This document shows positions 30,658 through 44,426 of a stretch of 59,012 nt of DNA, one piece after another. The notes beneath the pieces were generated by a model. That model was not told the origin of the DNA. It saw only the letters and a program-made list of their open reading frames with translations, and ran no database searches. Made by a program: the position numbers and the translations under genes. The number at the start of each line of letters is the position of its first letter. The first letter of the stretch is position 1. The stretch comes from a virus: the IMG/VR virus record IMGVR_UViG_3300048999_000041, positions 1-59,012 of that record. One strand, 5' to 3'.

Positions 30658-30987
30658 ATGGATCGTGACCAATTTGAGAACATCCTGGATGCGCAAATCA
30701 AGCGTGTCCGGGATGTTCTGGTCTTAAAAGCGACCGAATACGCTAACGAAGATCGTCTCGCCAATTTCAAAAAGGCGGCGGTCCTTGCTGGTCGAGGAAT
30801 TCCGCAAATTATTGGTGGGATGATGATAAAACATACTGTGTCCATCTACGACATGATCGAAAGCGGCAAGCCATATTCTATTGATGTATGGAATGAGAAG
30901 ATCACCGACCACATCAACTACCTTATTCTTCTACGCGCCTCTTTGATCGAGAACGCTAATTCAGACCAAGGAACTTTATCTTGTTAA
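30658..30987 (+). CDS. DUF1599-like (Nmad1) protein
   Basis: The 109-residue product has the pattern VLVLKATEYANEDRLANFKK, IIGGMMIKHTVSIYDMI, and a C-terminal KITDHINYLILLRASLI helix. This fits the nucleotide-modification-associated domain 1/DUF1599 family, often encoded by phages near genes for DNA or nucleotide metabolism. ATG 30658 directly abuts the previous stop. Function of the family is not settled. Confidence 0.7.
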   Translation: MDRDQFENILDAQIKRVRDVLVLKATEYANEDRLANFKKAAVLAGRGIPQIIGGMMIKHTVSIYDMIESGKPYSIDVWNEKITDHINYLILLRASLIENANSDQGTLSC

Positions 30988-31589
30988 AGAAAGTCATTAC
31001 CTATACCAACCCGTTCACCGACGAAGAGGTGAGCGAGGAGCATTACTTCCATATTTCCAAGGCCGATCTGGTCGAGATGGAGATGGAGGAGCATAATGCT
31101 ACATACGAGAAAGACGGCGAACAGCTCACCGGCATGCAGGCCAAGCTTCAACGAGTTATCGATTCCGAAGACGGCAAGGCCATTCTTTCAGAGTTTAAGG
31201 ACATCATTCGCCGGTCTTATGGCAAGAAAGACGGAGATCGCTTTATCAAGTCTTCTGAGATTTGGGCGGAGTTCTCTTCGTCCGAAGCGTATTCTCAGCT
31301 CATATTTGATCTGTGCACGGATGCTGAAATTGCTGGCGAGTTTGTCACCGGTATCATTCCCAAGAACTTGGATAAGATCGCTGAAGAGATTAAGTCGCGG
31401 GCAGATGTGGATCAAAGCGAGCCGGAGATCGACACAGCTCCTGATGTCGTTAATAATGCTAATATTTCTACAGCTTGGCCTTCCGACGAGGACTCAATCG
31501 CTCAAATTCTGTCACCCGACGAAGTGGCGGCAATGGACTCTGATGAACTGAAGTCCGGTCTTGCCGAAGGGCGCTACAAGCTCTCCTAG
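30981..31589 (+). CDS. Acidic phage protein of unknown function (tail-chaperone-like)
   Basis: The 202-residue acidic product starts from TTG 30981 (LKKVITYTNPFTDEEVSEEH), overlapping the previous gene. It has a helical core IDSEDGKAILSEFKDIIRRS, YGKKDGDRFIKSSEIWAEFS and EAYSQLIFDLCTDAEIAGEF, and an acidic tail. The pattern recurs in Firmicutes phages, where it is sometimes annotated as a tail assembly chaperone; here it lies outside the tail module. It ends 12 bases before the structured RNA begins. Confidence 0.7.
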   Translation: MLKKVITYTNPFTDEEVSEEHYFHISKADLVEMEMEEHNATYEKDGEQLTGMQAKLQRVIDSEDGKAILSEFKDIIRRSYGKKDGDRFIKSSEIWAEFSSSEAYSQLIFDLCTDAEIAGEFVTGIIPKNLDKIAEEIKSRADVDQSEPEIDTAPDVVNNANISTAWPSDEDSIAQILSPDEVAAMDSDELKSGLAEGRYKLS

Positions 31590-31601
31590 AGAGGGGTCTC
31601 A

Positions 31602-32500
31602 CATAAAAGGGGTATAGGGCGGCTAAAGCGTCTTATATTAAACGACAGCAACGCTCGGTGCAGATGCGGTACTATTCCGTGGAGGGATATGCTCCGTCTG
31701 GTAAGGTAAACCGACGACATGCGCCCCTTTTATGCTCTATATTTCAAAACGTGATGGGACACGCCCATCGCCGTAAGTCCTGACGCTTATTGTACGAAGG
31801 TTTATGTACTAAGCTAAGGTAATCGGCAAACCTTCTGAGTTAGTCGCAGAAGTTGTTGCAAACCCTGGGGTAGTGACCCAGGTACCTGAGGGATCGACTC
31901 CTCGGGTAAGTCTTATCTAGGTGCTAATCGACCTAGAATACTTCGTCGGGAACCCTACCGTTCAAGTACAAGTACCGACGTCGAAAGTATGGTTGGGTCT
32001 GCTAACAAATACCATACTAAAAATAGAACGCGCAAAAAGGGCCCAAGAGCGCGTTCGACAACACAGCAGTTCATGGCAGTAAAACAAATAACTATAGCGT
32101 TCCCGTAACATTGTTCGCTGGTACGGGCTGATTTACATCCATCAGAGCTATAGTTCATAGATCCCATCTCACGGCCGCGACCTCCAGGTAAGAGGCGAGG
32201 GGTGCAAGCGAAAGCCGGACTGGCGCCAGTTTAGGCGGCCGGATAAGCTCTGCGGAGGGATACACAACCTGCCCGCCGTGGGTAGTAAGTAGGCCTGCTC
32301 TACTAATTCAGGAAGTCCGATCCCCCAGACAATTGTGCCCTTCGTCGGTGTACGGTTGATCTGGGGGTAGGCACTTAATCTTAGATAGGTCGAGTATCCG
32401 GTAAAGGCAGGAAGGCGTACATCCAATCGCTTCCACCGTGAGGATAAAATGTCAGTAATAGGCGCGGTAGGGACTTATCAGCCGCCTGCTACCTATCTAT
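31602..32500 (+). ncRNA. Large ornate structured RNA (RNA-A), GOLLD/ROOL-like in size, class unknown
   Basis: About 900 nt with no convincing reading frame, packed with helices. CATAAAAGGGG (31602-31612) pairs perfectly with CCCCTTTTATG (31725-31735). GATGGG/CCCATC is at 31753/31764, CCTGGG/CCCAGG at 31864/31877 and ACCTGAGG/CCTCGGGT at 31884/31900. GAACGCGC/GCGCGTTC is at 32026/32049. CTATAGC/GCTATAG (32092/32147) encloses CCCGTA/TACGGG and CTGAT/ATCAG, a three-way junction. CCCCCAG/CTGGGGG is at 32322/32361. The 31750-31910 section is repeated in RNA-B at 43.5 kb with compensatory changes. Large ornate RNAs of this size (GOLLD, ROOL) are known from phages and often lie near tRNAs, but membership cannot be shown here. 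Promoter P6 follows at once. Ends are approximate. Confidence 0.82.
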
Positions 32501-32501
32501 A

Positions 32502-32527
32502 TTCGCGTAAAAAACTACTCCTATAAT
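32502..32527 (+). promoter_or_regulatory. Promoter P6 (TTCGCG-N14-TATAAT)
   Basis: TTCGCG 32502-32507, spacer 14, TATAAT 32522-32527. TACTCCT ahead of the -10 is complementary to AGGAGTA at the ribosome site. Confidence 0.8.
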
Positions 32528-32555
32528 AGAAGACCCTACCTACAAGGAGTATCTA

Positions 32556-32822
32556 ATGGAAAGCCCTGATTTTACCCCGCGCAATGTCGCGAAGTTCGTA
32601 GTCAAGGCCATTGTTGCCGGAAGAGCTGCTCAGCTCGCCGAAGACGCCATCACCGATTACACGCGGTTCGAGGAAGACGATATGATCGTCGACATCTCGA
32701 CCAGCGTGATCGGCTGGTACGTCTCGGACAAGCTGAAGCCCTACACCGACAAGATGGTCGACAAGACTGCCGACTTCATCGCCGCAAAGCGCGGTAAGAA
32801 GGACACCACAGAGACCCAGTAG
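32556..32822 (+). CDS. Small cassette protein, membrane-associated
   Basis: The 88-residue product (RNVAKFVVKAIVAGRAAQLA, DISTSVIGWYVSDKLKPYTD) has two amphipathic or weakly hydrophobic helices and a basic tail. AAGGAGTATCTA precedes ATG 32556. Complete cassette: P6, gene, terminator. It looks like the 27324 cassette product in size and in the alternating Gly/Ala/Ile helix. Function unknown. Confidence 0.75.
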   Translation: MESPDFTPRNVAKFVVKAIVAGRAAQLAEDAITDYTRFEEDDMIVDISTSVIGWYVSDKLKPYTDKMVDKTADFIAAKRGKKDTTETQ

Positions 32823-32830
32823 CTGGTCAA

Positions 32831-32869
32831 ATGAGGATCTGCCTAATACGCAGGTTCTCATTTTGTTTT
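32831..32869 (+). terminator. Rho-independent terminator
   Basis: ATGAG-ATCTGC pairs with GCAG-TTCTCAT around a short loop, followed by TTTTGTTTT, whose end forms the TTCGCG of promoter P7. Confidence 0.82.
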
Positions 32870-32893
32870 CGCGTTATATTCATCTCCTATAAT
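32868..32893 (+). promoter_or_regulatory. Promoter P7 (TTCGCG-N14-TATAAT)
   Basis: TTCGCG 32868-32873, spacer 14, TATAAT 32888-32893, then GAGACC. It overlaps the upstream terminator T tract. Confidence 0.8.
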
Positions 32894-32922
32894 GAGACCT
32901 ATATCTATCTAAGGAGACCCTT

Positions 32923-33090
32923 ATGGACACCGATCGATTCCTCACCAACCTTCAGCATCAGGCTGAAGACAATCCGGTGCTGGCTCTCGGAGTTGCAGCT
33001 GCGCTGTTTACTTCGCTGAGCAAGCTCCTGAATGCCGCTGCCTGGAAGAAGGAAGTGAGTCGACGGACCCTGAAGGACCGAAAGAAGTAG
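32923..33090 (+). CDS. Small cassette protein with one hydrophobic helix
   Basis: The 55-residue product has NLQHQAEDNPVLALGVAAAL, a membrane-like helix, and a basic C-terminus (KKEVSRRTLKDRKK). TAAGGAGACCC precedes ATG 32923. Its own promoter P7 and terminator make a monocistronic unit. Unknown function. Confidence 0.72.
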   Translation: MDTDRFLTNLQHQAEDNPVLALGVAAALFTSLSKLLNAAAWKKEVSRRTLKDRKK

Positions 33091-33100
33091 TCACCTTATA

Positions 33101-33130
33101 ATGAGAATCCAAAACATGGGTTCTCATTTT
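33101..33130 (+). terminator. Rho-independent terminator
   Basis: ATGAGAATCC pairs with GGGTTCTCAT, followed by TTT. It is nearly the same design as the terminator at 27559. Confidence 0.83.
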
Positions 33131-33133
33131 GCC

Positions 33134-33159
33134 TTCGCGTAAAAAACACTCCCTATAAT
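33134..33159 (+). promoter_or_regulatory. Promoter P8 (TTCGCG-N14-TATAAT)
   Basis: TTCGCG 33134-33139, spacer 14, TATAAT 33154-33159. It transcribes a short structured RNA ending in a strong terminator. Confidence 0.8.
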
Positions 33160-33253
33160 GAGAGAGACAACTGTCGCCGATCCCCGCAAGGGGCAATCCG
33201 TCTGCTGGTTGCGACATAAAAGACTATTACCAGTGTCTTTCTTTTTCTTTTTT
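33160..33253 (+). ncRNA. Short structured RNA from P8 ending in a terminator
   Basis: From P8 the transcript would contain a hairpin CCCC-gcaa-GGGG inside a CAAC/GTTG pairing, then AAAGAC-tattaccagt-GTCTTT followed by TTTTTCTTTTTT (33218-33253), a textbook terminator. With no ORF between, this is either a ~90-nt phage sRNA or an attenuator controlling the gene at 33274. Confidence 0.6.
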
Positions 33254-33273
33254 GCCAAATCTAAAGGATTTTA

Positions 33274-33915
33274 ATGGAAGACTTCCCAGCCAATAGCCAG
33301 AGGGCTAGAGCGGAACAACCGCGAGAGAAGGTCGAGCGGGTTACCTCAGCTGAAGCTGTTAGGCGGAAGCGAGGGCTCGGCCATAAATTCAAGGAGACCT
33401 TTCTCCCTGGAGATACACGCAGCATGACAGAGCATGTGGTTCAGGGTGTGGTTCTTCCCGGAATCAGAGACCTGTTGTTTGATACTATTTCTGACGCAAT
33501 TCATCGTATGTTCTTCGGGGATAGTAATCGTCCGAGATACGGTGGCGGTGCGTCAATGCCATCGAGCTATGGCCGTGTGGATTATCCTCATACACCATAT
33601 AATCGTATGAACACTACCGCAGCTACGCAGCAGCCACAGCAGAGAATGCTGTCAAGAGGGGCTCGAGCTCGTCATAATTTTGACGATCTGATTATTCCTT
33701 CACGCCAAGAAGCAGAAGAAGTTCTCGACCGTATGTATGACCTGTTGTCAAAATATGGCCGTGTTGAAGTATCGGTTCTGTATGAGCTTACCGGCATCCA
33801 AAGTTCTCATACGGATATGAAGTGGGGCTGGACCAACCTCAAGGGGGCTAAGGCGGTAAAGCTTAGAAACGGAGGATTTCTTCTTGACCTGCCTGAACCA
33901 GAGGCCTTTGTATGA
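33274..33915 (+). CDS. Conserved phage protein of unknown function
   Basis: The 213-residue product has a basic N-terminus, a helix around VQGVVLPGIRDLLFDTISDA, a Gly/Pro/Tyr-rich linker, and a C-terminal domain (DDLIIPSRQEAEEVLDRMYD, LLSKYGRVEVSVLYELTGI, WGWTNLKGAKAVKLRNGGFL). This C-terminal pattern is widespread in phages carrying DUF6353 genes; its function is unknown. TAAAGGA precedes ATG 33274. Expression may depend on read-through of the P8 terminator. Confidence 0.75.
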   Translation: MEDFPANSQRARAEQPREKVERVTSAEAVRRKRGLGHKFKETFLPGDTRSMTEHVVQGVVLPGIRDLLFDTISDAIHRMFFGDSNRPRYGGGASMPSSYGRVDYPHTPYNRMNTTAATQQPQQRMLSRGARARHNFDDLIIPSRQEAEEVLDRMYDLLSKYGRVEVSVLYELTGIQSSHTDMKWGWTNLKGAKAVKLRNGGFLLDLPEPEAFV

Positions 33916-34070
33916 GTAAAAAGAAGAGACAACCCAGACGACGTCCCGATATTCAGATGGTTCGTCATTATTTAAAACGAGAAGAATATCAGCCGTGTAA
34001 AACACCTGGTTGTAAGAACGTCGTGTCCAGCAAAAGCGGCCTCATATTTTGTAGCCGCTGTAAAAAATAA
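33912..34070 (+). CDS. Small zinc-ribbon-like protein
   Basis: The 52-residue, very basic product has two cysteine pairs (CKTPGC and CSRC) that could bind one zinc ion. ATG 33912 overlaps the previous stop (ATGA). Probably nucleic-acid binding. Unknown role. Confidence 0.65.
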   Translation: MSKKKRQPRRRPDIQMVRHYLKREEYQPCKTPGCKNVVSSKSGLIFCSRCKK

Positions 34071-34088
34071 CAGAAAGGGGGTCGGACT

Positions 34089-34268
34089 ATGTCCGCCAAC
34101 GATATCGAGAATAAGCGTCAGTTCGTGATTGGTCTATATTCCGGCCCAAGCTGGAAGCGACGGGTGCAGAAGATGTCTGACGTTCAGGTGATTGCTATCT
34201 ACTTGCGCGAGCATAACAAGCCGAAGAAGCCGCCAAAGGAGAGCGACAGTGATCCAGCACCCTTTTGA
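34089..34268 (+). CDS. Small basic protein, unknown
   Basis: The 59-residue product (QFVIGLYSGPSWKRRVQKMS, VQVIAIYLREHNKPKKPPK) has an FVIGLYSG-type start and a Lys/Pro-rich tail. GAAAGGGGGTC lies upstream of ATG 34089. It overlaps the next gene. This short pattern recurs in phage accessory regions. Confidence 0.65.
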   Translation: MSANDIENKRQFVIGLYSGPSWKRRVQKMSDVQVIAIYLREHNKPKKPPKESDSDPAPF

Positions 34269-34443
34269 GTCAGGAGAGAAGCCGGAAGAGGAAGGGGACA
34301 CGCGTCCCATGCCTTGTCCTACGTGCGAAAGCACTAGAGGATATTCTCGAGTGGGAAATTATCGAGTTCAGTGTCTGAATTGTAATTCCTTGCTAAAGAA
34401 CGAAGAAGTCGACATGCAATTTTCCGATCAGGAGCAAAAATGA
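34249..34443 (+). CDS. Small zinc-ribbon protein
   Basis: The 64-residue product has CPTC...CLNC spacing typical of a zinc ribbon (MPCPTCESTRGYSRVGNYRV, QCLNCNSLL). The start is GTG 34249, with AAAGGAGAG upstream, inside the previous gene. Its stop overlaps the next ATG. A DNA or RNA contact role is likely but unproven. Confidence 0.68.
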   Translation: MIQHPFESGEKPEEEGDTRPMPCPTCESTRGYSRVGNYRVQCLNCNSLLKNEEVDMQFSDQEQK

Positions 34444-35366
34444 ATCTAATTCCAACCGCGATCAGTCGCAAGATCTCAGAACAAGGTCTCCTTGCGTCTG
34501 AGCACGCCCCAAAGGTTCTCTTTGTGGGTGGCGTCGTGGGCATGGTCGGCTCGACCGTTCTGGCCTGTCGTGCGACGCTAAAAGTTGAGGGTATCCTCGA
34601 TCGAGTTGATGCTGGCAAGGAACAAGCCGAAGAGGTCTTTGCTGTGGTCAACGACCCAGAGTATATCGGAGAATCTACATATTCTCTGAAGGAGTACAAG
34701 AAGGACCTTCACATCATCAGGGCGCGTGGGCTTGGACAGGTTGTTAAACTCTATGCGCCCTCTGTGATCTTGGGCGCAGCTTCAGTTGCCGCGTTGACTA
34801 AGTCGCACAACATCCTGCAAGATCGAAATCTTGCCCTGGCTGCTGCCTACACGGCGGTTGACAGTGCCTTCGCTCGGTATCGTGAGCGAGTTATCGACAT
34901 GTTCGGTGAAGAGATGGACGACGATATTCGTTACGAGTCAGAGCAGGTTGACGTTGTCGACGAAGAGACGGGTGAGGTCAAGACGATTACTCGCATTGTC
35001 GACGCACCAGGGTCAGCATATTCTCGATTCTATGACGAAGAGTCGTCGAGGAATTGGTCTACTAACCCGGACATCAACATGGCGTTTCTACGCACTGTTC
35101 AGAACTATGCGAATGATCGGTTGAAGATTCGCGGTCACGTGTTTCTCAATGAGGTCTACGACGAGCTGGGACTGTCACATACTAAAGCCGGATCGGTTGT
35201 CGGATGGCGTTGGAATAAGGAGTCCGGAGACGATTACATCGATTTCGGCATCTGGGACGACACAAGTGAGGCGGTAAACGACTTTTTCAATGGTCGTGAA
35301 GGAGCCATCCTCCTTGACTTCAATGTCGATGGCGTAATCTACGATAAGCTTGAGGAGCGGTATTGA
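34440..35366 (+). CDS. DUF6353-related protein (copy 2)
   Basis: The 308-residue paralogue of the 29058 product has the same layout: first hydrophobic helix (APKVLFVGGVVGMVGSTVLA), second hydrophobic helix (LYAPSVILGAASVAALTKSH), AALAAAYTAVDSAFARYRER, and a C-terminal domain with SRFYDEESSRNWSTNP and VGWRWNKESGDDY. It is larger and more divergent. It overlaps its neighbours (ATGA at the start; TTG start of the next gene at its stop). Two copies in one genome suggest a hetero-oligomeric membrane complex. Confidence 0.75.
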   Translation: MNLIPTAISRKISEQGLLASEHAPKVLFVGGVVGMVGSTVLACRATLKVEGILDRVDAGKEQAEEVFAVVNDPEYIGESTYSLKEYKKDLHIIRARGLGQVVKLYAPSVILGAASVAALTKSHNILQDRNLALAAAYTAVDSAFARYRERVIDMFGEEMDDDIRYESEQVDVVDEETGEVKTITRIVDAPGSAYSRFYDEESSRNWSTNPDINMAFLRTVQNYANDRLKIRGHVFLNEVYDELGLSHTKAGSVVGWRWNKESGDDYIDFGIWDDTSEAVNDFFNGREGAILLDFNVDGVIYDKLEERY

Positions 35367-36226
35367 CTACCAAGGACACAGCGAAGGAAATCGCTGAGAT
35401 TGCCGCAGACGGTGTGGCAGACGGCCTGCACATCGTAGGCGAAGAAACTCTGGCTATCGAAGAAGCAACGAGAGCCATTGACCGGGTGGGCCTTGGGTAT
35501 TTTGCCCTTGGCCTTGCCGCTGGTGTCGCTGCTGGAGCATTTTCTGGTTTTGTCGTGGCCTATCGTAAAGCTGAGACAAAGTACAGCGAAATTGCCGCGG
35601 AGGAAATTGCCGAGATGCGACAGCATTATTCCGCCAAGGCTACGGCTCTTGATTCAGAGGCCGGTAAGAAAGATCTCGAGGATATTGTTCGGGAGAGAGG
35701 ATATTCTCCTGAGATCTCAGCCGAGCCGCCGATGGCTGTGTCACCGCCGATCGCTGTGACAGAAGCAGCCGAGGAATCAGACGAAGTTGTCGATCCTGAG
35801 CCTCCTGTGCCTCAAGAGGTTCGCAACGTTTTCGAAGAAAATCAAGTCAAAGACGAGTGGGACTATCACCAGGAGCGAGCTGGACGTTCTCCGATGAAGC
35901 CATACGTTATTCATCTCGACGAACGTGATGATAACGATGCGTACGATGAGGTTACCTGGACATATTACGAAGATGACGACGTTCTTTGTAATGAGCTTGA
36001 CGAGGTCATCTCCGAAGCAGATCGGGAAAGGATCGTTGGCGAGACCAATTTGGAGAAATTCGGCCATGGTTCTGGTGACGCACAGATTGTCTATGTGCGA
36101 AACGACAATCTAGAGATGGATATCGAAGTCATCAAATCGCCAAACTCGTATGCTGAAGAAGTCCATGGTCTAAGCCACTCGAGTAGTCCACGTCGTCGGG
36201 AGAGGATGAGATTCGACGATGAATAA
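35363..36226 (+). CDS. Acidic protein with N-terminal TM, DUF6353-associated
   Basis: The 287-residue product starts at TTG 35363 overlapping the DUF6353 stop. It has a membrane helix (GYFALGLAAGVAAGAFSGFV), a helical stalk, a Pro/Glu-rich linker, and a C-terminal domain (KPYVIHLDERDDNDAYDEVT, WTYYEDDDVLCNELDEVI, IVYVRNDNLEMDIEVIKS). The same gene order after DUF6353 occurs in other phages. The role is unknown; it may anchor something to the membrane. Confidence 0.72.
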   Translation: MTTKDTAKEIAEIAADGVADGLHIVGEETLAIEEATRAIDRVGLGYFALGLAAGVAAGAFSGFVVAYRKAETKYSEIAAEEIAEMRQHYSAKATALDSEAGKKDLEDIVRERGYSPEISAEPPMAVSPPIAVTEAAEESDEVVDPEPPVPQEVRNVFEENQVKDEWDYHQERAGRSPMKPYVIHLDERDDNDAYDEVTWTYYEDDDVLCNELDEVISEADRERIVGETNLEKFGHGSGDAQIVYVRNDNLEMDIEVIKSPNSYAEEVHGLSHSSSPRRRERMRFDDE

Positions 36227-36758
36227 TCATCCTCTGGCTGAGGACTATCTTAACTGGTTGGCCCCTCAGATCAGAGATGAGCATGACGGTAATCCGGATA
36301 AAACATACAGTAATCTAATTGTACTCATGTTCGAGAAGGAGTTTGTCTGGCTCGTCCCCAACGATGATAATCGTTTGGGTGACGGGCTGGGCTTACGTGT
36401 CGAGTTTTGTTATGAGCATCACATTCGTCAAGGATCTTTAGCGCATCTGGGTCCTTGCTCGTTTTTAGAAGTTCTGATTGGGCTGTCTAAGCGATTGGCG
36501 TTTGATATTGGGGGTAATGCTTCCGGTTGGGCGTGGACACTCATCTCTAATCTGGAATTGCATAGAATGTCGGATCCTCTTTCTCAGTATAAAATTGAGA
36601 AAACAAACGATATTCTTGACAGATGTATATGGAGAAATTATGGCCCAGATGGTTCCGGTGGCTTTTTCCCATTAGCGTGGCCAGAAGAAGATCAGAGAAA
36701 GGTGGAGCTATGGTATCAGATGGCCGCGTGGATCAATGAACTCCATCCCGAGCATTGA
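36219..36758 (+). CDS. Conserved phage protein, unknown
   Basis: The 179-residue product contains FEKEFVWLVPNDDNRLGDGL, LRVEFCYEHH, GPCSFLEVLIGLSKRLAFDI and GGFFPLAWPEEDQRKVELWY. This strongly patterned family recurs beside DUF6353 genes. No catalytic motif is evident. ATG 36219 overlaps the upstream stop by 8 nt. Confidence 0.75.
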   Translation: MNNHPLAEDYLNWLAPQIRDEHDGNPDKTYSNLIVLMFEKEFVWLVPNDDNRLGDGLGLRVEFCYEHHIRQGSLAHLGPCSFLEVLIGLSKRLAFDIGGNASGWAWTLISNLELHRMSDPLSQYKIEKTNDILDRCIWRNYGPDGSGGFFPLAWPEEDQRKVELWYQMAAWINELHPEH

Positions 36759-36759
36759 T

Positions 36760-36960
36760 ATGAGTCAAAAACCAAAAGGACACGACGAATCTCCGGCAAT
36801 TATCTCTGATCATGCGTTTGAACCAAGAGGCGAATGGTGGGATTTATGTCGGCATTGTGGTTTAGCCATGGCCAGCCATGAAGAAACAACAATTGACCCC
36901 AAAGATCACATCGCCCCACATGTTAGTATTGAATACTACGGTGACGACGAAGATGATTAA
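36760..36960 (+). CDS. Small acidic CxxC protein
   Basis: The 66-residue product has EWWDLCRHCGLAMASHEETT, i.e. a CxxC plus a nearby His that could bind zinc, and ends in an acidic tail. ATG 36760 starts just after the preceding stop. Confidence 0.62.
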   Translation: MSQKPKGHDESPAIISDHAFEPRGEWWDLCRHCGLAMASHEETTIDPKDHIAPHVSIEYYGDDEDD

Positions 36961-36971
36961 TAAGGAGAAGG

Positions 36972-37199
36972 ATGGCTAAAAGAAATACAGCGGAATTTCT
37001 TCGCCTAATGAATGAAGCCAATAATGCTATCGCAGCACGAGCGGCTCAACCTGTGAAAAATCTAAGAGGCGATCCGGTACGCATCCAACGAGACGCCGAA
37101 CGGCGAGAAAAGGCCGGAGGCCCGCTTAGAGCTCGTGAGCACACAAGAAGTCGGCCGGTAACGGCTCGACACGCCTTTGGACGACCGCAGATGTACTAA
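36972..37199 (+). CDS. Small basic protein, unknown
   Basis: The 75-residue Arg-rich, probably disordered product (NAIAARAAQPVKNLRGDPVR, RAREHTRSRPVTARHAFG) starts at ATG 36972 after TAAGGAGAAGG. It directly precedes the replicase, so it might be a replication accessory factor. Confidence 0.65.
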   Translation: MAKRNTAEFLRLMNEANNAIAARAAQPVKNLRGDPVRIQRDAERREKAGGPLRAREHTRSRPVTARHAFGRPQMY

Positions 37200-37214
37200 A
37201 CAGAAAGGAGGATA

Positions 37215-40200
37215 ATGGACTTCTATCAGATCCGAGTGCACGAGACAAAAGAAGGGCCGCTGGAGCTATATCCCGACTTTATCGTCGGGCGTTCTGAGGA
37301 TCTGATGGTCCAAGGTCGTACTTTCTATGCTATTTGGGACGAAGAGAAGAAATTATGGTCGCAAGATGAGTATGATGTACAGCGACTGGTTGATGAAGAT
37401 CTGCGCCAGGAGGCGAATCGACTACATAAGGAGACTGGACAGAAGTACACTATACGTTCTATGCGCTCATTCGGTTCAAACTCCTGGACGCAGTTTCGTA
37501 AGTTCGTTGCTCATATTTCCGATAATAGTCATCCGCTAGATTCCAAGCTGGTCTTTGCTAACGCCGAGATAAAAAAGGAAGACTATGCCTCAAAACAACT
37601 CCCCTACGCACTGTCTGAGGGGGCCACGCCAGCTTGGGATGAGCTCCTCGCAACTCTCTATGCTCCGGAAGAGCGCGCAAAGATTGAGTGGGCTATTGGC
37701 TCGATTGTTTCGGGGGATAGTAAACGCATTCAGAAATTTCTCGTCTTCTATGGCCCGGCTGGTACTGGTAAGTCGACGATTCTCGGAATTATCGAGAAAC
37801 TCTTCGAAGGATATACCACGACATTCGATGGCAAGGCGTTGGGTAACTCCAATTCGTCATTTGCCACCGAAGCGTTTAAACATCACCCCCTTGTCGCGAT
37901 CCAGCACGATGGGGATCTTTCGCGGATCGAGGATAATACACGCCTGAACTCCATCATCTCACACGAGACGATGACTATGAACGAGAAGTACAAGCCATCA
38001 TATTCAGCAAGAGTTGACGCCATGCTGTTCATGGGCTCCAATCAGCCGGTAAAGATCTCTGATGCAAAATCGGGAATCATCCGACGTCTGATGGACGTGC
38101 ATCCGACAGGTATCAAGATTCCAGCCAAGCACTATCAGACTCTCATGACGCAAATCGGCTTTGAACTCGGTGCCATAGCGCACCGTTGTCTCTCTGTATA
38201 TTTGTCTATGGGTAAGAATTACTACGACGCATATCGTCCGTTGGAGATGATGTTGCAGACCGACGTCTTCTTTAACTTCATCGAAGCACATTTTGATGTG
38301 TTCAAGTCACAAGATCATACCACGCTAAAGCAAGCGTATATCTTGTATAAGGAATATTGCTCGGACAGCGGAATCGAGAGACCTATGCCGCAATACAAAA
38401 TGCGAGAGGAGTTGCGAAACTACTTTGATGAGTTTCACGATCGAGGTGAACTCGACGGCCAACCAGTACGAAGCCTTTACTCCGGGTTTAACGCCAATAA
38501 GTTCAAAGCGCCCAAAGACGATCCGGCGACATTTTCGTTAGTGCTTGAAGAAAAGACCTCTCTTCTTGATGAGTTTTTAGCTGACTACAAAGCACAGTTG
38601 GCTTTGACCAAAGATACCGAGTACCAAAAGGCCGGAGATCCGGAGAGAAAATGGGCTAATGTAAAAACCAAGCTATCAGATATTGATACGCGAAAAATTC
38701 ACTGGGTTAAAGTTCCTGAAAATCACGTGGTGATCGATTTCGATCTGAAGGACAGTAATGGAACCAAAGCTCTCGAGCGAAATCTCGAAGCGGCCAGTCA
38801 GTGGCCACCCACTTACGCTGAGTTGTCAAAATCAGGTTCTGGCGTACATCTTCATTTTAGCTACACCGGAGACCCCGATGAGCTTGCGTCTCAATACGCT
38901 GAAGGCATTGAAGTTAAAGTGTATCGAGGGGAAGCTGCCTTGCGCCGTCGTGTGTCCAGATGTAACGCGGTGCCTATTGCGGAGATATCTACCGGACTCC
39001 CAGTAAAGCCTAGAAAGGACAAGATGCTCAAGGAGAAAACTATCAAGAGCGAACACGGGTTGCGGGAACTGATAAAGAAGAATCTGCGTAAGGAGATTCA
39101 TCCAGGCACCAAATCTTCGGTGGACTTTATCAAGCATATTCTTGATGAAGCGCACGAGTCGGGAATGAAATACGACGTCAGCGATATGCGTAACACGATT
39201 GTCGCGTTCGCCAACAACTCTACTAACCAGGCCACTCAGGCCCTGAAAACGGTTATGAACATGAAGTGGGCGTCTGATGAGCCGGATTCAGAAGGTTCTG
39301 GAGTCAGTGAGCCCGTAGTGGAAGTGGCTGACGATCGACTTGTCTTCTTCGATGTCGAGGTATATTCTAATCTGTTTGTTATTTGTTGGAAGTTTCTTGG
39401 CTCCGAAGAAGTAGTCAAGATGATTAACCCAAAACCTCACGAAGTGGCCGAGCTATTTAAATTGAAGTTAGTGGGCTTCTATAATCGACGATATGACAAT
39501 CATATTCTATATGCGGCGGCTATGGGGGCAACCAACGAAGAGCTCTTTCGTTTAAGCAGTAAGATCATTGAAGGCAATCGCTCGGCTACCTTCGGAGCGG
39601 CGTATAACTTGTCTTACGCCGATATTTGGGATTTCTCTTCGGTTAAGCAGAGTCTGAAGAAGTTCGAGCTTGACCTGGGAATACTTCATATGGAGTTAGA
39701 TATTCCCTGGGATCAGGCGGTGGACGAAAGCGATTGGCAGCGAGTGGTTGATTATTGTGTCAATGACGTTAAGGCAACTGAGAAAGTCTTCGAAGATAGA
39801 AAAGCAGATTTCGTAGCTCGACAGATCTTAGCCGAGTTATCCGGTCTTACGGTAAATGATACCACACAGAATCACACCGCGCGAATCATATTTGGCAACG
39901 ACAAACAAGCCTCTAAGAAGTTTATCTACACCGATCTTAGCGAAGAATTCCCCGGGTATGAATTTAAGCTTGGCAAGAGTTATTACCGCGGAGAAGAGCC
40001 TGGCGAAGGGGGCTATGTCTACGCTGAACCGGGAATGTATGAAAACGTCGCAGTATTAGACGTTGCCTCCATGCATCCCAACAGTATTATCGCCTTAAAT
40101 GCGTTCGGCCCGTATACTCAGAAGTTTGAAGACCTTATTAAAGCTCGTATTGCAATTAAGCGTAAAGATTTTGATGCTGCCGCCAACATGTTGGACGGTA

Positions 40201-41057
40201 AGCTCACTTCGTTTATTACTCTCCCCCACGAAGGCTGGGATGTCGAGGGAGCGGAGAAGCTTGCCTACGCGCTTAAGATCGTGATCAATATTGTCTATGG
40301 TCTCACTTCAGCTAAATTTAATAATCCTTTCCGAGATATTCGCAACATCGATAATATTGTCGCCAAGCGTGGCGCTCTGTTCATGATCGATCTCAAGCAC
40401 GCTCTGCAGGACAAGGGCGTCCAGGTCGTGCATATCAAGACCGACTCGGTGAAGATTCCCAACGCAACACCGGAGATCATCGAGTTTGTCACGGAATTCG
40501 GTAAGAAGTACAGTTACGACTTCGAACACGAGGCAACATATAACAAATTCTGTCTGGTCAACGATGCGGTTTACGTGGCCGGTATGGAGACCGTGCCTTG
40601 GGACGATCCTTCGGTTCCCTTCCCGGGATATTCTTGGACAGCGGTTGGTGCTCAGTTTCAGCATCCCTATGTGTTCAAGGCTCTGTTCTCTCACGAGGAA
40701 ACGGAGTTCAAGGATTTCTGTGAAGGTCGGTCGGTGGTCAAGGGCGCCATGTATCTAGACTTTAGCGAAGAAGTCAATGGTATGGAGCCCGATATTTCCA
40801 AGATGCGTCACGTGGGTAAGACCGGACTTTTCGTTCCAGTGTTAGAGGGTGGAGCAAAGCTCTATCGGTATAATGAAGAGAAATACTATGCTGTGTCAGG
40901 TACTAAGGGACATCTCTGGATGGAGGCAGCGGTTGCCGAGAACAAGGATGATCTGCAGATTGACATGACATATTTCGAGAAGTTAAAGAAAGCAGCAATC
41001 GAGGCAATCCAAAAGTTTGGTGCGTTTGACGATCTTATAAAACCCAAGGAAAGGTAA
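37215..41057 (+). CDS. Helicase-primase-family B DNA polymerase fusion
   Basis: This 1280-residue chain combines three replication activities. Residues ~140-400: SF3/D5-type helicase (Walker A GPAGTGKS at 180-187, acidic VAIQHDGDLSR, sensor LFMGSNQPVK). Residues ~450-610: archaeo-eukaryotic-primase-like domain (IDFDLKD with Asp508/Asp510, SGSGVHLHF at ~540-548, GIEVKVYRG). Residues ~705-1280: proofreading family B polymerase: Exo I DVEVYSN (713), Exo II GFYNRRYDNH, Exo III YCVNDVKATE, motif A DVASMHPNS (Asp949), motif B KIVINIVYGL, motif C HIKTDSVKI (Asp1077). Lys1075 replaces the first Asp of the usual DTDS. It would unwind, prime and extend phage DNA. AAAGGAGG precedes ATG 37215. There is no sign of frameshift or intein. 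Confidence 0.88.
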   Translation: MDFYQIRVHETKEGPLELYPDFIVGRSEDLMVQGRTFYAIWDEEKKLWSQDEYDVQRLVDEDLRQEANRLHKETGQKYTIRSMRSFGSNSWTQFRKFVAHISDNSHPLDSKLVFANAEIKKEDYASKQLPYALSEGATPAWDELLATLYAPEERAKIEWAIGSIVSGDSKRIQKFLVFYGPAGTGKSTILGIIEKLFEGYTTTFDGKALGNSNSSFATEAFKHHPLVAIQHDGDLSRIEDNTRLNSIISHETMTMNEKYKPSYSARVDAMLFMGSNQPVKISDAKSGIIRRLMDVHPTGIKIPAKHYQTLMTQIGFELGAIAHRCLSVYLSMGKNYYDAYRPLEMMLQTDVFFNFIEAHFDVFKSQDHTTLKQAYILYKEYCSDSGIERPMPQYKMREELRNYFDEFHDRGELDGQPVRSLYSGFNANKFKAPKDDPATFSLVLEEKTSLLDEFLADYKAQLALTKDTEYQKAGDPERKWANVKTKLSDIDTRKIHWVKVPENHVVIDFDLKDSNGTKALERNLEAASQWPPTYAELSKSGSGVHLHFSYTGDPDELASQYAEGIEVKVYRGEAALRRRVSRCNAVPIAEISTGLPVKPRKDKMLKEKTIKSEHGLRELIKKNLRKEIHPGTKSSVDFIKHILDEAHESGMKYDVSDMRNTIVAFANNSTNQATQALKTVMNMKWASDEPDSEGSGVSEPVVEVADDRLVFFDVEVYSNLFVICWKFLGSEEVVKMINPKPHEVAELFKLKLVGFYNRRYDNHILYAAAMGATNEELFRLSSKIIEGNRSATFGAAYNLSYADIWDFSSVKQSLKKFELDLGILHMELDIPWDQAVDESDWQRVVDYCVNDVKATEKVFEDRKADFVARQILAELSGLTVNDTTQNHTARIIFGNDKQASKKFIYTDLSEEFPGYEFKLGKSYYRGEEPGEGGYVYAEPGMYENVAVLDVASMHPNSIIALNAFGPYTQKFEDLIKARIAIKRKDFDAAANMLDGKLTSFITLPHEGWDVEGAEKLAYALKIVINIVYGLTSAKFNNPFRDIRNIDNIVAKRGALFMIDLKHALQDKGVQVVHIKTDSVKIPNATPEIIEFVTEFGKKYSYDFEHEATYNKFCLVNDAVYVAGMETVPWDDPSVPFPGYSWTAVGAQFQHPYVFKALFSHEETEFKDFCEGRSVVKGAMYLDFSEEVNGMEPDISKMRHVGKTGLFVPVLEGGAKLYRYNEEKYYAVSGTKGHLWMEAAVAENKDDLQIDMTYFEKLKKAAIEAIQKFGAFDDLIKPKER

Positions 41058-41061
41058 AGAC

Positions 41062-41232
41062 GTGGGAATCGTTAATATCGATATTCTCATGAATGACGAT
41101 GCTGGAGAAGCGGCGCTTAGAGCGCAAGCGGCGCGAGAGGCTAAGCTTATTCTAGCACACCGTCAAGGACAGCATCCTTATGGGTCTATGCGTCGAGACT
41201 GCCCATTATGTCAGGAGCGAGATGGCCGGTAG
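41062..41232 (+). CDS. Small protein with CxxC
   Basis: The 56-residue product from GTG 41062 (AAAGG upstream) is an Ala-rich helix followed by RRDCPLCQERDG, a single CPLC zinc knuckle half-site. It overlaps the next gene. A similar C-terminal MRRDCPLC signature appears in small proteins that follow phage polymerases. Confidence 0.6.
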   Translation: MGIVNIDILMNDDAGEAALRAQAAREAKLILAHRQGQHPYGSMRRDCPLCQERDGR

Positions 41233-41485
41233 TTACAACCACATCATTACCAAAGAAGGTAATCTCGTAAGTAACGAGCGCTTCGTTAATTTTATCGAGA
41301 ATCTCGGAGACGCATACGAGATGGCCGAACAGATGTATGGAATGATCTGGTTTCTGGCCCATATGGGCCCTGAGCCACCGACTACAAGTCCCGAAAATTT
41401 GGTTGAGACAGCTCGCCTACACTACGAAGATGGATTAGTGCTTGCTAAAGCAAATAAAAACAAAGCAAAACATCACGAACGTTAG
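41222..41485 (+). CDS. Hypothetical protein
   Basis: The 87-residue helical product (NFIENLGDAYEMAEQMYGMI, ENLVETARLHYEDGLVLAKA) starts at ATG 41222 inside the previous gene. Not recognised; it is part of the replication operon. Confidence 0.65.
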   Translation: MAGSYNHIITKEGNLVSNERFVNFIENLGDAYEMAEQMYGMIWFLAHMGPEPPTTSPENLVETARLHYEDGLVLAKANKNKAKHHER

Positions 41486-41494
41486 TTCTGCTAA

Positions 41495-41734
41495 ATGAAA
41501 AAGAATAAAAACACTGACTACAAAATTTCGTTCCGGCAGAGCAGAATAATAGGCACGTGGTCTTATATCATCAAGACCCCAGACGGTCGAAGGCTTTATC
41601 CCGTTATTATGGGTACCTTCGCTATGAAGGAATCAGCGGAGAGAGACGCCCTGCGAAGAATAAATCTCGATCGAGCGACATACGAGATGACGGGGACCGA
41701 GCTTGCAACCAAGTACAACAAACAGGAGAGCTAA
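41495..41734 (+). CDS. Hypothetical protein
   Basis: The 79-residue basic product (YKISFRQSRIIGTWSYIIKT, RATYEMTGTELATKY) overlaps the next start by one base. No motif recognised; it immediately precedes the putative ssDNA-binding protein. Confidence 0.65.
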   Translation: MKKNKNTDYKISFRQSRIIGTWSYIIKTPDGRRLYPVIMGTFAMKESAERDALRRINLDRATYEMTGTELATKYNKQES

Positions 41735-42210
41735 TGGCGTCACCAGACCCAAAGCAGTCCGTCCTCATGGAGGGCGTCCGTATCATCTTCCGCAACTTTG
41801 CGGGTAAGGAGGGTAAGTACAACCGAGAAGGCGATCGCAACTTCGGCGTGATTCTGCCACCGGATATTGCTGAGGCTATGTTGGCGGATGGCTGGGCAGT
41901 GAAGTATCTGCAGCCCAGAGAGGACGACGAAGAGCCTCAGGAGACGCCATGGCTGCCGGTTTCGGCAGCCTTTGACAAGGGGCGTCCGCCACAGGTTGTG
42001 TTGATCACTTCTCGTGGTCGGACTAACCTGGATGCCGATACGGTCGAGACGCTTGACTGGGCCGATATCACCAATGTCGACCTGATGGTGCGTCCATATT
42101 TCTGGGACGTTAACGGTAAGACCGGAATCAAGGCCTACCTGCAGTCCATGTACGTCACTATCGAAGAGGATGCGTTGGCGCAGAAGTATGCGGAGATGGA
42201 CTCGCAGTGA
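41734..42210 (+). CDS. Putative ssDNA-binding protein
   Basis: The 158-residue product contains GVRIIFRNFAGKEGKYNREG, DRNFGVILPPDIAEAMLADG, PPQVVLITSRGRTNLDAD and VRPYFWDVNGKTGIKAYLQS, an OB-fold-like phage family I associate with single-strand DNA binding near replicases. Good ribosome site (ACAGGAGAG) before ATG 41734. Codons are more G/C-ending than in its neighbours, consistent with high expression. The stop overlaps the next start (GTGA). Confidence 0.68.
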   Translation: MASPDPKQSVLMEGVRIIFRNFAGKEGKYNREGDRNFGVILPPDIAEAMLADGWAVKYLQPREDDEEPQETPWLPVSAAFDKGRPPQVVLITSRGRTNLDADTVETLDWADITNVDLMVRPYFWDVNGKTGIKAYLQSMYVTIEEDALAQKYAEMDSQ

Positions 42211-42452
42211 CCCATACCTATGCGAGTGTCAATCAGACGACACGCGACATGGTCAAAAAAGACCTAGTTAGGGTATTGAGACAGCCGTCGGAAACAGATG
42301 CTTATTTTCTCCCGGAGGGTCATTATACAGTAATGACTTCAAACGGAGAAAGTAAATGTGAGGGTCCGGTGTGGATTCTTTGGGATACCTCTGGTTTTCC
42401 TTACCCTATTACGCCGGAGGAGTTCAAGAAGCTCTACATAATGAAGGACTAG
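42207..42452 (+). CDS. Hypothetical protein
   Basis: The 81-residue product (KDLVRVLRQPSETDAYFLPE, GPVWILWDTSGFPYPITPEE) starts from GTG 42207 overlapping the upstream stop. Probably a small beta-rich domain. Unknown function. Confidence 0.65.
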   Translation: MTHTYASVNQTTRDMVKKDLVRVLRQPSETDAYFLPEGHYTVMTSNGESKCEGPVWILWDTSGFPYPITPEEFKKLYIMKD

Positions 42453-42502
42453 ACAACCCGTGACACCAATGTGGAACTACCAAACAGAAAGAACCAATAA
42501 TC

Positions 42503-43078
42503 GTGCTTATTGAGACAGAGAAGTATATTCGCAAGCCGCTTTATGTCAACGCTATTCGAGTCACCGAGGAGAACTTCGACTCTGTGTCGACTTGGTGTGA
42601 GGGCACGGTGGAGAAGGAGTCCGGAGGACCGAGGGAGGGAAAGCAGTTCATCAAGGTCAACGTTCACGGAGTGCCCAAGAGCCAGCGTCAGACGAAGGCG
42701 TTTGTTGGTGACTGGCTGCTCCATACCGAGCGGGGTTTCAAGGTCTACACCGATAATGCATTTCGTGCCTCGTTTGATTCCGTTCTCGATTCCGTTCCGG
42801 ATACGGTCGTTTCATCGCTTAATGACATTACCACCAAAGAGACCGATGGGCCGATCAACAACGGAACCGTCGGACATAAGCCGTTTACGCCCCCTGAGGG
42901 GGTCGAGGCAACGATCGAGCGTGCTCCAGTGGTGTCGGACAGTGCCAGCGCTCCGCCTCCGAGCACAGAAGACGGACGTCGCATTCTCACAGAGGTCGAG
43001 CAGCGAGAGATGGATTCGGCGGAGGTCGCCGAATTACTACGTTCGGGGCAGGCGATTCTCGCTCAGGATCTGGTGTAA
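42503..43078 (+). CDS. Phage protein with KYIRKPLYVNAIRVTEEN-type domain
   Basis: The 191-residue product from GTG 42503 has KPLYVNAIRVTEENFDSVST, TWCEG and TKAFVGDWLLHTERGFKVYT. This domain recurs in many phages (VxAVQVTxENM...W..G...GDW) without known function. A disordered acidic C-terminal half ends in a short helix. It directly abuts the mIHF gene. Confidence 0.7.
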   Translation: MLIETEKYIRKPLYVNAIRVTEENFDSVSTWCEGTVEKESGGPREGKQFIKVNVHGVPKSQRQTKAFVGDWLLHTERGFKVYTDNAFRASFDSVLDSVPDTVVSSLNDITTKETDGPINNGTVGHKPFTPPEGVEATIERAPVVSDSASAPPPSTEDGRRILTEVEQREMDSAEVAELLRSGQAILAQDLV

Positions 43079-43420
43079 ATGAGTGGCGTCCTGGAAACGA
43101 AAGTAGAAAATCACGTTCCAGATCGTTCACTTGCGCAGCGTATGGATGCGTTAGAACGAGCAAATGATATTCGTATCTACCGAGCACAATTAAAGCGAGA
43201 TATCAAGGCGGGGCGTAAGCAGATTGTTCATCTTTTAGAGAACCCTCCTGAAAAGATCGAATCGATGAAAGTATTTGATCTTCTTCTCACCGTTCCAAAA
43301 TTGGGACGTATAAAGGTTGACAAAATGATTAAGGTTTGTCGAATGTCTCCGTCGAAAACCGTCGGCGGGCTGAGTGATAGGCAACGAAACGAGCTTGTCG
43401 ACTTTCTTCGTCGACGTTAG
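43079..43420 (+). CDS. Actinobacterial-type integration host factor (mIHF-like)
   Basis: The 113-residue basic product matches mIHF: LAQRMDALERANDIRIYRAQ, LKRDIKAGRKQ, SMKVFDLLLTVPKLGRIKVD, and CRMSPSKTVGGLSDRQRNEL. mIHF is a nucleoid protein of Actinobacteria that binds and bends DNA via a helix-two-turn-helix. A phage copy could assist replication, packaging or transcription control. It is one of the best host pointers in the window. ATG 43079 overlaps the upstream stop region. The structured RNA-B follows directly. Confidence 0.85.
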   Translation: MSGVLETKVENHVPDRSLAQRMDALERANDIRIYRAQLKRDIKAGRKQIVHLLENPPEKIESMKVFDLLLTVPKLGRIKVDKMIKVCRMSPSKTVGGLSDRQRNELVDFLRRR

Positions 43421-43444
43421 TCATATTTAGGTTACGGAGGCAAT

Positions 43445-43712
43445 ACTAGGACCACACCGTTATAAAAGGGGTATTGGCCAATTCCCTTAACCTATATTTC
43501 TTGGCGGATCACGCCCGTCGCCGTAAGTCCCAGCAACGAAACCGCTTGCGGTTAGTAACTGGGTAAGTCGGCAACCGGTCTGAGTTAGTCGCAGGCTGAA
43601 GGGTGGACCATTAGGCGCGTTGCGTCGTCCATTCATAAACCCCGGTTCGTGACCGGGTACCTACGGAGATCGACTCCCGTAGGTCAATTGGCTTATATGC
43701 AAGGGGTTGACT
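43445..43712 (+). ncRNA. Structured RNA-B, short paralogue of the RNA-A domain
   Basis: Shares with RNA-A the order AAAAGGGGTAT, CCGTAAGTCC, GTCGGCAACC-like, CTGAGTTAGTCGCAG, AAACCC..GTGACC..GGTACCT and GATCGACT. Helices are kept by paired changes: GGCGG/CCGTC (vs GATGGG/CCCATC), GTCTG/CAGGC (vs TTCTG/CAGAA), CCCGGT/ACCGGG (vs CCTGGG/CCCAGG), ACCTACGG/CCGTAGGT (vs ACCTGAGG/CCTCGGGT). Extra hairpins: CCCAG/CTGGG enclosing AACC/GGTT, and GTCAA/TTGAC. No ORF fits. It lacks the 3' ~600 nt of RNA-A. Confidence 0.8.
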
Positions 43713-43779
43713 TGTGCCTCTTAAAGGAATCCTGTACATAGCTGAGAACAGAGTAAAGACAAGCAGCGTTAGCATACGC

Positions 43780-43847
43780 AGAAGTACGGTGGTGGGGTCT
43801 CCACGGGGGTCTGGGCTTAATCGCCTGGGCCCCCGTGCCTTACTTCT
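43780..43847 (+). ncRNA. Strong GC-rich hairpin downstream of RNA-B
   Basis: AGAAGTA (43780-43786) pairs with TACTTCT (43841-43847), enclosing CACGGGGG (43802-43809) and CCCCCGTG (43830-43837). It may be the 3' domain of RNA-B, a terminator lacking a T run, or a leader element for the 43876 gene. Confidence 0.55.
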
Positions 43848-43875
43848 AATAACAATATCGAAAGGCTTGCATAGC

Positions 43876-44259
43876 ATGTCCGAGTTAACTTTACCAGTTG
43901 ATATCAAATCCCCCTCAGGAAACGTGGTTGCCCGTTTGGAGATGGGCGCAGCAGAGGGCTCAGAATACGTCACTTTACGAATCTTTGATGGTGATATCAT
44001 CAATGTTCGAAATGTGCAGGGAGGTACGACTGATAACCCCAATCTCGATCTAGGCGCTGGTGACTCAGGGGCTCATCGCGGATCGGTTGTTGTCAATTGG
44101 GATGTCGGTAATGAGTTTGCTGTGTTCAACGGTCGTAAAGTCCGAGCTTTTGATGTCAATCGAGATAACAAAGGCATTATCAACTCCCGACAGCCACATC
44201 GATTTTATCACGGCGCTCTTATACCCGACGGTAAGGGTGGTTGGAAGCGTTTAACCTAA
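43876..44259 (+). CDS. Hypothetical beta-rich protein
   Basis: The 127-residue product (LPVDIKSPSGNVVARLEMGA, GSEYVTLRIFDGDIINVRNV, HRGSVVVNWDVGNEFAVFNG) looks all-beta. ATG 43876 lies after the RNA-B region with only GAAAGGCTT upstream. The open frame extends back to 43714 through the hairpin, but that part is RNA-like. Not recognised. Confidence 0.68.
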   Translation: MSELTLPVDIKSPSGNVVARLEMGAAEGSEYVTLRIFDGDIINVRNVQGGTTDNPNLDLGAGDSGAHRGSVVVNWDVGNEFAVFNGRKVRAFDVNRDNKGIINSRQPHRFYHGALIPDGKGGWKRLT

Positions 44260-44276
44260 GAGACCAAGGAAAAATA

Positions 44277-44426
44277 ATGACTGCGAAAGAACTGATCCAA
44301 TATTTACAAGGTGAGACCGAAGCGGAAGTACTTATCCACGATGACATAATCGACAAGGATGTACCGATCGGTCGGGTCGAGATGAAATATGGCCAGCCGA
44401 TTGTGCTGCATTTCGAAAACAATTAG
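44277..44426 (+). CDS. Small acidic protein
   Basis: The 49-residue product (TAKELIQYLQGETEAEVLIH, GRVEMKYGQPIVLHF) follows CAAGGAAAAATA. The TAKELIxxLQGxxxxAEVLI pattern recurs in short phage proteins. Unknown function. Confidence 0.65.
   Translation: MTAKELIQYLQGETEAEVLIHDDIIDKDVPIGRVEMKYGQPIVLHFENN

Follow-up and report, generated by a model that had tools for sequence, protein, structure and literature searches.

We found that the window, a complete IMG/VR virus record of 59,012 bases and the whole stretch of DNA analysed here, carries two copies of a real, conserved RNA structure on the strand of its genes, a common kissing-loop domain that we call module I. One copy lies within the stretch RNA-A (31751–31909; covariance model R1, 122.7 bits, E = 3.6e-31) and the other within RNA-B (43501–43686; 129.9 bits, E = 3.9e-33); both are on the plus strand, as are the window's helices, modules and flanking genes given below. 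With RNA-B as sole query, a search of the window returns RNA-A at E = 4e-6 (reverse search, E = 3e-6), and a profile HMM of the five copies from outside the window retrieves both (E = 1.5e-23 for RNA-A, E = 1.4e-18 for RNA-B). The earlier note had aligned RNA-B with 31602–31910 and had proposed a unit of ~270 nt; the homology holds, over the shorter extent just given, and the conserved unit is ~160–190 nt. The covariance-model search that the note had suggested, combined with pattern scans, gave five further copies, one each in the related phage records L047, L048, L050, L128 and L130 of IMG/VR. All show covariation, so the outcome that the note had named as refuting did not occur. These copies and a covarying kissing loop, which the note had not seen, strongly support its claim of a selected RNA secondary structure.

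The window's virus is most likely an actinophage, because its DNA polymerase/primase shows ~62% identity to its counterparts in Gordonia and Rhodococcus phages and because it encodes an integration host factor (IHF) of actinobacterial type.

Fold and covariation of module I

In RNA-B, the fold begins with the P1 hairpin (GGCGG/CCGTC, 43503–43519; in RNA-A, GATGGG at 31753–31758 and CCCATC at 31764–31769), which has double changes in 2 of 6 pairs over the seven copies and a loop that is usually ACACG. P2, P3 and P4 occupy 43520–43572. P2 (GCCG/CGGC, 43520–43523 and 43569–43572) is invariant in all seven copies and surrounds both a near-invariant 5 × 5 internal loop, UAAGU facing UAAAU, and P3 (CCCAG at 43529–43533, CUGGG at 43559–43563), whose third pair is CG, UA, AU or GC; the P4 hairpin capping P3 is freely variable and nearly missing in L128. 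Six of the seven pairs of P5 are double-changed (CGGUCUG/CAGGCUG, 43576–43598; loop AGUUAGUCG, consensus AGUUAGYCG). An optional hairpin, P5b, stands between P5 and P6 (43602–43633, from alignment A3); it is present in RNA-B, L047 and L128 and absent from RNA-A, L048, L050 and L130. P6 (CCCGG/CCGGG, 43641–43657) has a middle pair that is CG, GU, AU, UA or UG among the seven copies and a loop of GUAGUG type (GUAGUGA/U), and P7 (ACCUACGG/CCGUAGGU, 43659–43684; loop consensus (A/G)UCGRCU) shows double changes in 3 of its 8 pairs and one-sided changes in another 2.

The loops of P5 and P7 form a kissing loop of 5 bp, in which AGUCG (43587–43591) pairs with CGACU (43671–43675). It is paired in 35 of 35 cells over the seven copies and two of its pairs covary: AGUCG/CGACU in both window copies, AGCCG/CGGCU in L048, L050, L128 and L130, and CGCCG/CGGCG in L047. 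In the aptamers of the purine, cobalamin and lysine riboswitches, too, a short kissing helix holds together two hairpin loops within a single domain; module I differs from them in its helix layout and has neither a conserved downstream gene nor an Rfam match. Two further candidate features were rejected, a pseudoknot between the P1 loop and the 5′ flank (CGTG/CACG), which is not conserved, and P7 as an intrinsic terminator, since no conserved U-tract follows P7 and the one weak match is confined to RNA-A.

The unedited MAFFT alignment of the seven copies has 34 pairs and 97.4% of 227 cells paired; 14 of the 34 pairs are double-changed (7.5 ± 1.5 (sd) in shuffled alignments and 1–3 in slid controls), and the covariation score is 0.394 as compared to 0.03–0.05 when slid. 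The curated core (kissing loop included), from which variable inserts were dropped and which is favoured by having been hand-aligned to the structure, agrees with the unedited alignment (99.2% of 266 cells paired, 15 of 38 pairs double-changed; observed values reached in 0 of 500 shuffles). As common descent alone can make related sequences covary, we also ran a tree-aware null in which the inferred substitutions of each branch were redistributed among helix columns. In 5000 simulations, none of the four observed measures was reached even once, and the simulated maximum of paired cells was 82.3% against the observed 99.2%. Module I therefore shows the covariation above a phylogeny-aware null that is the criterion of a conserved structured RNA. 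The RNA is that of the gene strand, since one-sided changes are G-U pairs there and A-C mismatches on the other strand. Folding energy z-scores are modest for RNA-B (−2.3) and better for RNA-A (−3.1, or −4.1 for the 906-nt stretch).

The two window copies by themselves already show compensation. Over a curated core of 105 columns (76 paired and 29 unpaired), they differ in 19 paired and 4 unpaired columns, and each copy keeps 37 of its 38 pairs. Seven double-changed pairs stay paired (one each in P1, P3 and P6, two each in P5 and P7), which bears out the note's count of at least four helices with paired substitutions by extending it to five. Both helix swaps that it had quoted are correct (CCTGGG/CCCAGG for CCCGGT/ACCGGG, and ACCTGAGG/CCTCGGGT for ACCTACGG/CCGTAGGT), and its three conserved loop sequences are each exact in RNA-A and RNA-B: GCCGTAAGTCC at 31770 and 43520, CTGAGTTAGTCGCAG at 31835 and 43580, and GATCGACT in the P7 loop of both. 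When the same substitutions were placed at random in paired columns, seven compensated pairs arose in 1 of 20,000 placements and 37 of 38 pairs were never kept. A recent duplication or repeat with no selection on the RNA would fit the presence of two copies in one genome with a common flank, the 13-mer ATAAAAGGGGTAT plus CTATATTTC, but this explanation retains practically no probability, having been refuted by the covariation, that is, by the compensated substitutions, by a fold kept in five other phages and by the tree-aware simulations.

That flank is all that the copies have in common upstream of the homologous unit, because RNA-A has an extra module of ~100 nt there. The 5′ flank of RNA-B (AUAAAAGGGGUAU ... 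CCCUUAA, 43462–43490), which shares the 13-mer with the start of RNA-A, is on sequence comparison probably a stripped-down module V.

Further copies and distribution

Among 80 relatives fetched through DNA polymerase similarity, blastn found the copies in L047 and L048, and a profile added the one in L050. A stricter P1 pattern, run over all of IMG/VR, matched five contigs, all true, and added L128 and L130. Searched against 1.75 Mb of relatives, the seven-copy covariance model recovers these seven and nothing else; another 0.78 Mb from further relatives yielded no new copies, the sole match there, L150, being the contig of L130. No new copy of module I came from a P2–P3 pattern scan or from a second DNA-polymerase scan (42 additional loci), and IHF used as a seed retrieved no related loci. 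Module I is narrowly distributed, occurring in six records, and only the window carries two copies among the 46 whole records searched.

Outside this clade, the P1 pattern gave 14 matches in a genome collection of 84,980 species. We regard these as chance, since none of them scores with the covariance model (best E = 1), and no copy in a bacterial genome was found in this way. Among 50,697 cultured phages, blastn with RNA-A and RNA-B as queries returned no match. The 15-mer CTGAGTTAGTCGCAG was tried as a tracer and discarded as a chance match, since none of the 39 IMG/VR contigs that contain it has the remaining domain. With the Rfam 15 covariance models, also at relaxed thresholds, no family matches the tested stretches, and the Rfam matches in the window (tRNAs and two at chance level) lie away from RNA-A and RNA-B. 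A literature search, with subscription journals mostly outside its coverage, found no published description of module I. We file module I as a previously uncatalogued RNA family, of the kind of structured phage noncoding RNAs, in an unusual modular setting.

Modules in RNA-A and in related phages

On comparison with related phages, RNA-A is made up of modules strung head to tail and is not a single indivisible RNA. Its order is V (31603–31746), I, a stretch with no assigned module, IV (32171–32286) and II (32287–32377), and the single 900-nt RNA in which the earlier note had placed the domain gives way to a mosaic whose parts occur separately or in other combinations elsewhere. Between modules I and IV, ~250 nt (31910–32165) have strong predicted helices and no relative that we could find.

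Module V, with which RNA-A starts, has an outer helix AUAAAAGGGG/CCCCUUUUAU and a conserved UUAAACGACAGCAA. The same gene junction holds nhmmer matches to it in L047 (two), L048 and L126, and there are shorter relatives elsewhere; in several compact relatives it is found between the stop codon of the tail-chaperone gene and the promoter that comes next. Many members of the clade have module V, with its near-invariant AAACGACAGC, at the tail-chaperone junction: L047 (4739–4848 and 5132–5247), L062, L064, L066, L083, L087 and L126. The gene-free stretch 3′ of the L047 tail chaperone includes a canonical T-arm-like hairpin (GGAGTTCGAATCTCC, 5040–5085), where ARAGORN calls no tRNA. Module IV (GGCCGYGACCUCCAGGUAA) is found in L053, L126 and L153 as well.

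An H-type pseudoknot, GUAG-GCCUGCU-CUAC-UAAUU-CAGG-AAGUCCGA-helix-UAGGC, makes up module II, which has seven copies: the window, L047 (18716–18792), L048 (18230–18308), L053 (15987–16086), L061 (15639–15725), L133 (387–469, minus strand) and L150 (13573–13650). Both of its helices covary (AGUAG/CUACU to GAUAG/CUAUC; pseudoknot CCUG/CAGG to GCGG/CCGC), and no Rfam family matches it in the tested stretches.

Other conserved gene-free elements belong to the same arrays, namely modules III (L047 17872–17952, L048 18104–18187, two in L133, and L150) and VII (L047 18390–18528, L128, L133, L150 and L049). Module VIII is the most widespread, with 12 copies in 11 contigs (L054 12321–12449; L128 7038–7163 and 8760–8893, minus strand; and L126, L053, L049, L052, L096, L153, L165, L181 and L190), and consists of conserved segments GATCTGCGACC, GGGAGTGCC and GGCAGCTC connected by variable helices. 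A gene-free element common to L149 (8720–8765) and L130 (past module II), CACGCTGGYGAGGCGGAGAGGACATAGCCAGCAT, is possibly another module.

At least seven candidate RNA modules are thus reshuffled among related actinophages, in gene-free gaps that lie shortly 3′ of genes, and they have no phage promoter of their own. Profiles of the seven (I, II, III, IV, V, VII and VIII) find them in 18 of the fetched clade contigs in varying sets and orders, for example V-V ... I-III-VII-II in L047, I-VII-VIII-VIII in L128, IV-VIII-II in L053 and III-VII-II-III in L133. Adjacent modules are often 2–17 nt apart (IV-II in the window, III-VII in L150, I-VII in L128, IV-VIII in L053 and L126). Small ORFs with ribosome-binding sites separate modules in L047, L048 and L053, and because of these ORFs the three arrays would not be one uninterrupted noncoding RNA unless processed.

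Genomic context and possible roles

We found no plausible genes within the RNA-A or RNA-B stretches. RNA-A follows a gene for a phage tail assembly chaperone (Phage_TAC_17, 30981–31589; Pfam E = 5.9e-40) and RNA-B follows the IHF gene (43079–43420; NCBIfam NF041260, E = 2.2e-18, above the cut-off). Across copies, the genes preceding module I are unrelated (the chaperone, IHF, a KPLYV-type small protein and a long secreted protein) and the sequence downstream differs in every copy. All copies are on the coding strand, roughly 2–300 nt past a stop codon, and the L050 copy starts ~2 nt after one. A terminator-like long hairpin of 15 pairs (43802–43837) stands ~120 nt past RNA-B, ahead of the next gene. 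The window's tRNA genes are single ones (27953, 46006 and 47203), none of which adjoins RNA-A or RNA-B; no tRNA was found in L047–L049.

A phage promoter-like motif, TTCGCGTAAAAAACA-N4-CCTATAATGAGACC, has ~10 copies in the window (26496, 26950, 27263, 27590, 28491, 32496, 32865, 33127, 47273 and 47528) and gave 334 matches in a search of 102 contigs, where 331 are on the gene strand. One copy lies right after RNA-A (32496–32540; nhmmer E = 4.8e-9) and drives the next gene. None adjoins RNA-A or RNA-B on the 5′ side, the nearest being 28491 and 33127, respectively. The simplest reading is that module I is co-transcribed with its upstream genes, because it has no promoter motif of its own and nearly abuts the stop codon in L050.

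IHF was considered as an obligatory partner of the RNA and rejected as a requirement. It is present in 7 of 30 records, and in most cases a module comes directly after it; L048, L050, L128 and L150 have module I and no IHF in their (incomplete) records, and L149 has IHF and none of the seven modules. IHF of this family (NF041260) is also encoded in L047, L049, L133, L149, L181 and L190, and in several phages a structured RNA module lies directly 3′ of its gene.

How might these modules act? RNA-B and the middle of RNA-A are two copies of one structured domain, its P1, P2–P3(–P4), P5, P6 and P7 locked by the 5-bp P5/P7 kissing loop, and this domain is one of the seven or more that an actinophage clade carries and reshuffles. 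The modules may be transcribed together with the upstream operon, as its 3′-UTR or as intercistronic segments (in RNA-A the operon of the tail chaperone, in RNA-B that of IHF), and may fold co-transcriptionally. Singly, or in a head-to-tail chain like that of RNA-A, they may then persist as a stable noncoding RNA that would serve as a trans-acting scaffold or decoy, comparable to GOLLD and ROOL. The small ORFs between modules and the narrow distribution of module I count against this reading. By analogy with these two, we tentatively lean towards composite, trans-acting RNAs from 3′-UTR and intercistronic regions, a reading that we hold at slightly under even confidence; it is favoured over a single-gene switch because there is no constant gene, because two sites are occupied and because module I is joined head to tail with other modules.

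GOLLD and ROOL are the nearest precedents, and by the covariance-model test module I belongs to neither. GOLLD is a large phage RNA, often >800 nt, with kissing loops, a conserved and a variable part and unknown function (PMC12286853). RNA-A resembles it in being phage-encoded, large (~900 nt) and structured, with a kissing loop and conserved and variable parts. However, cmscan gave no GOLLD match in 30900–44300 at E ≤ 5, nor at the gathering threshold over the window; GOLLD is often near phage tRNA islands, whereas no such island lies by RNA-A or RNA-B; and the modules here occur separately, in varying orders and with ORFs between them. ROOL, a phage and prophage RNA with several pseudoknots, conserved kissing loops and unknown function (PMC12286853), is likewise a phage RNA with a kissing loop, but there is no Rfam ROOL match here and module I has ~160 nt compared to 659 nt for the solved ROOL.

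The main rival to action in trans is a cis-acting intercistronic or 3′-UTR element, with effects confined to its own mRNA, that would guard the end of the upstream mRNA against RNases, insulate cistrons or determine the cut site in the polycistronic transcript. The position of every copy on the coding strand shortly past a stop codon, the lack of an own promoter motif in the window and the small ORFs with ribosome-binding sites that follow in L047 and L048 all agree with it. However, neither the upstream nor the downstream gene is constant, the loops are conserved far beyond the needs of a simple stability hairpin and modules are stacked directly one upon another in RNA-A, and we consider such an element possible but on balance unlikely.

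It is improbable that module I is a riboswitch-like leader of the downstream gene with the kissing loop as its switch. Ligand-binding RNAs typically have kissing loops and invariant internal loops, and a gene begins soon after module I in L047, L048 and L130; yet the downstream genes are unrelated from copy to copy, with no consistent class of regulated gene, another RNA module comes next in L128 and no Rfam riboswitch matches. Similarly, we see little chance of a self-cleaving or other catalytic RNA that processes the phage transcript. Modules I and II do have compact multi-helix folds with a kissing loop or pseudoknot, and the strand order of module II is, as we take it by eye, pistol-like, but no Rfam ribozyme family matches and no signature cleavage site was recognised.

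What is new is an uncatalogued RNA family that has a covarying tertiary contact, whose fold is well supported and which belongs to a shuffled set of modules. For GOLLD and ROOL, structures are known and functions are not, and the natural recombination of modules offers built-in domain deletions and swaps for testing the parts. The gene-free stretches of actinophage genomes are not empty. More speculatively, this phage clade could be running a modular RNA system of at least seven independently folding domains, exchanged between genomic sites and joined in varying combinations, that would give each phage its own composite noncoding RNA, perhaps evolving against host factors as shuffled protein domains do.
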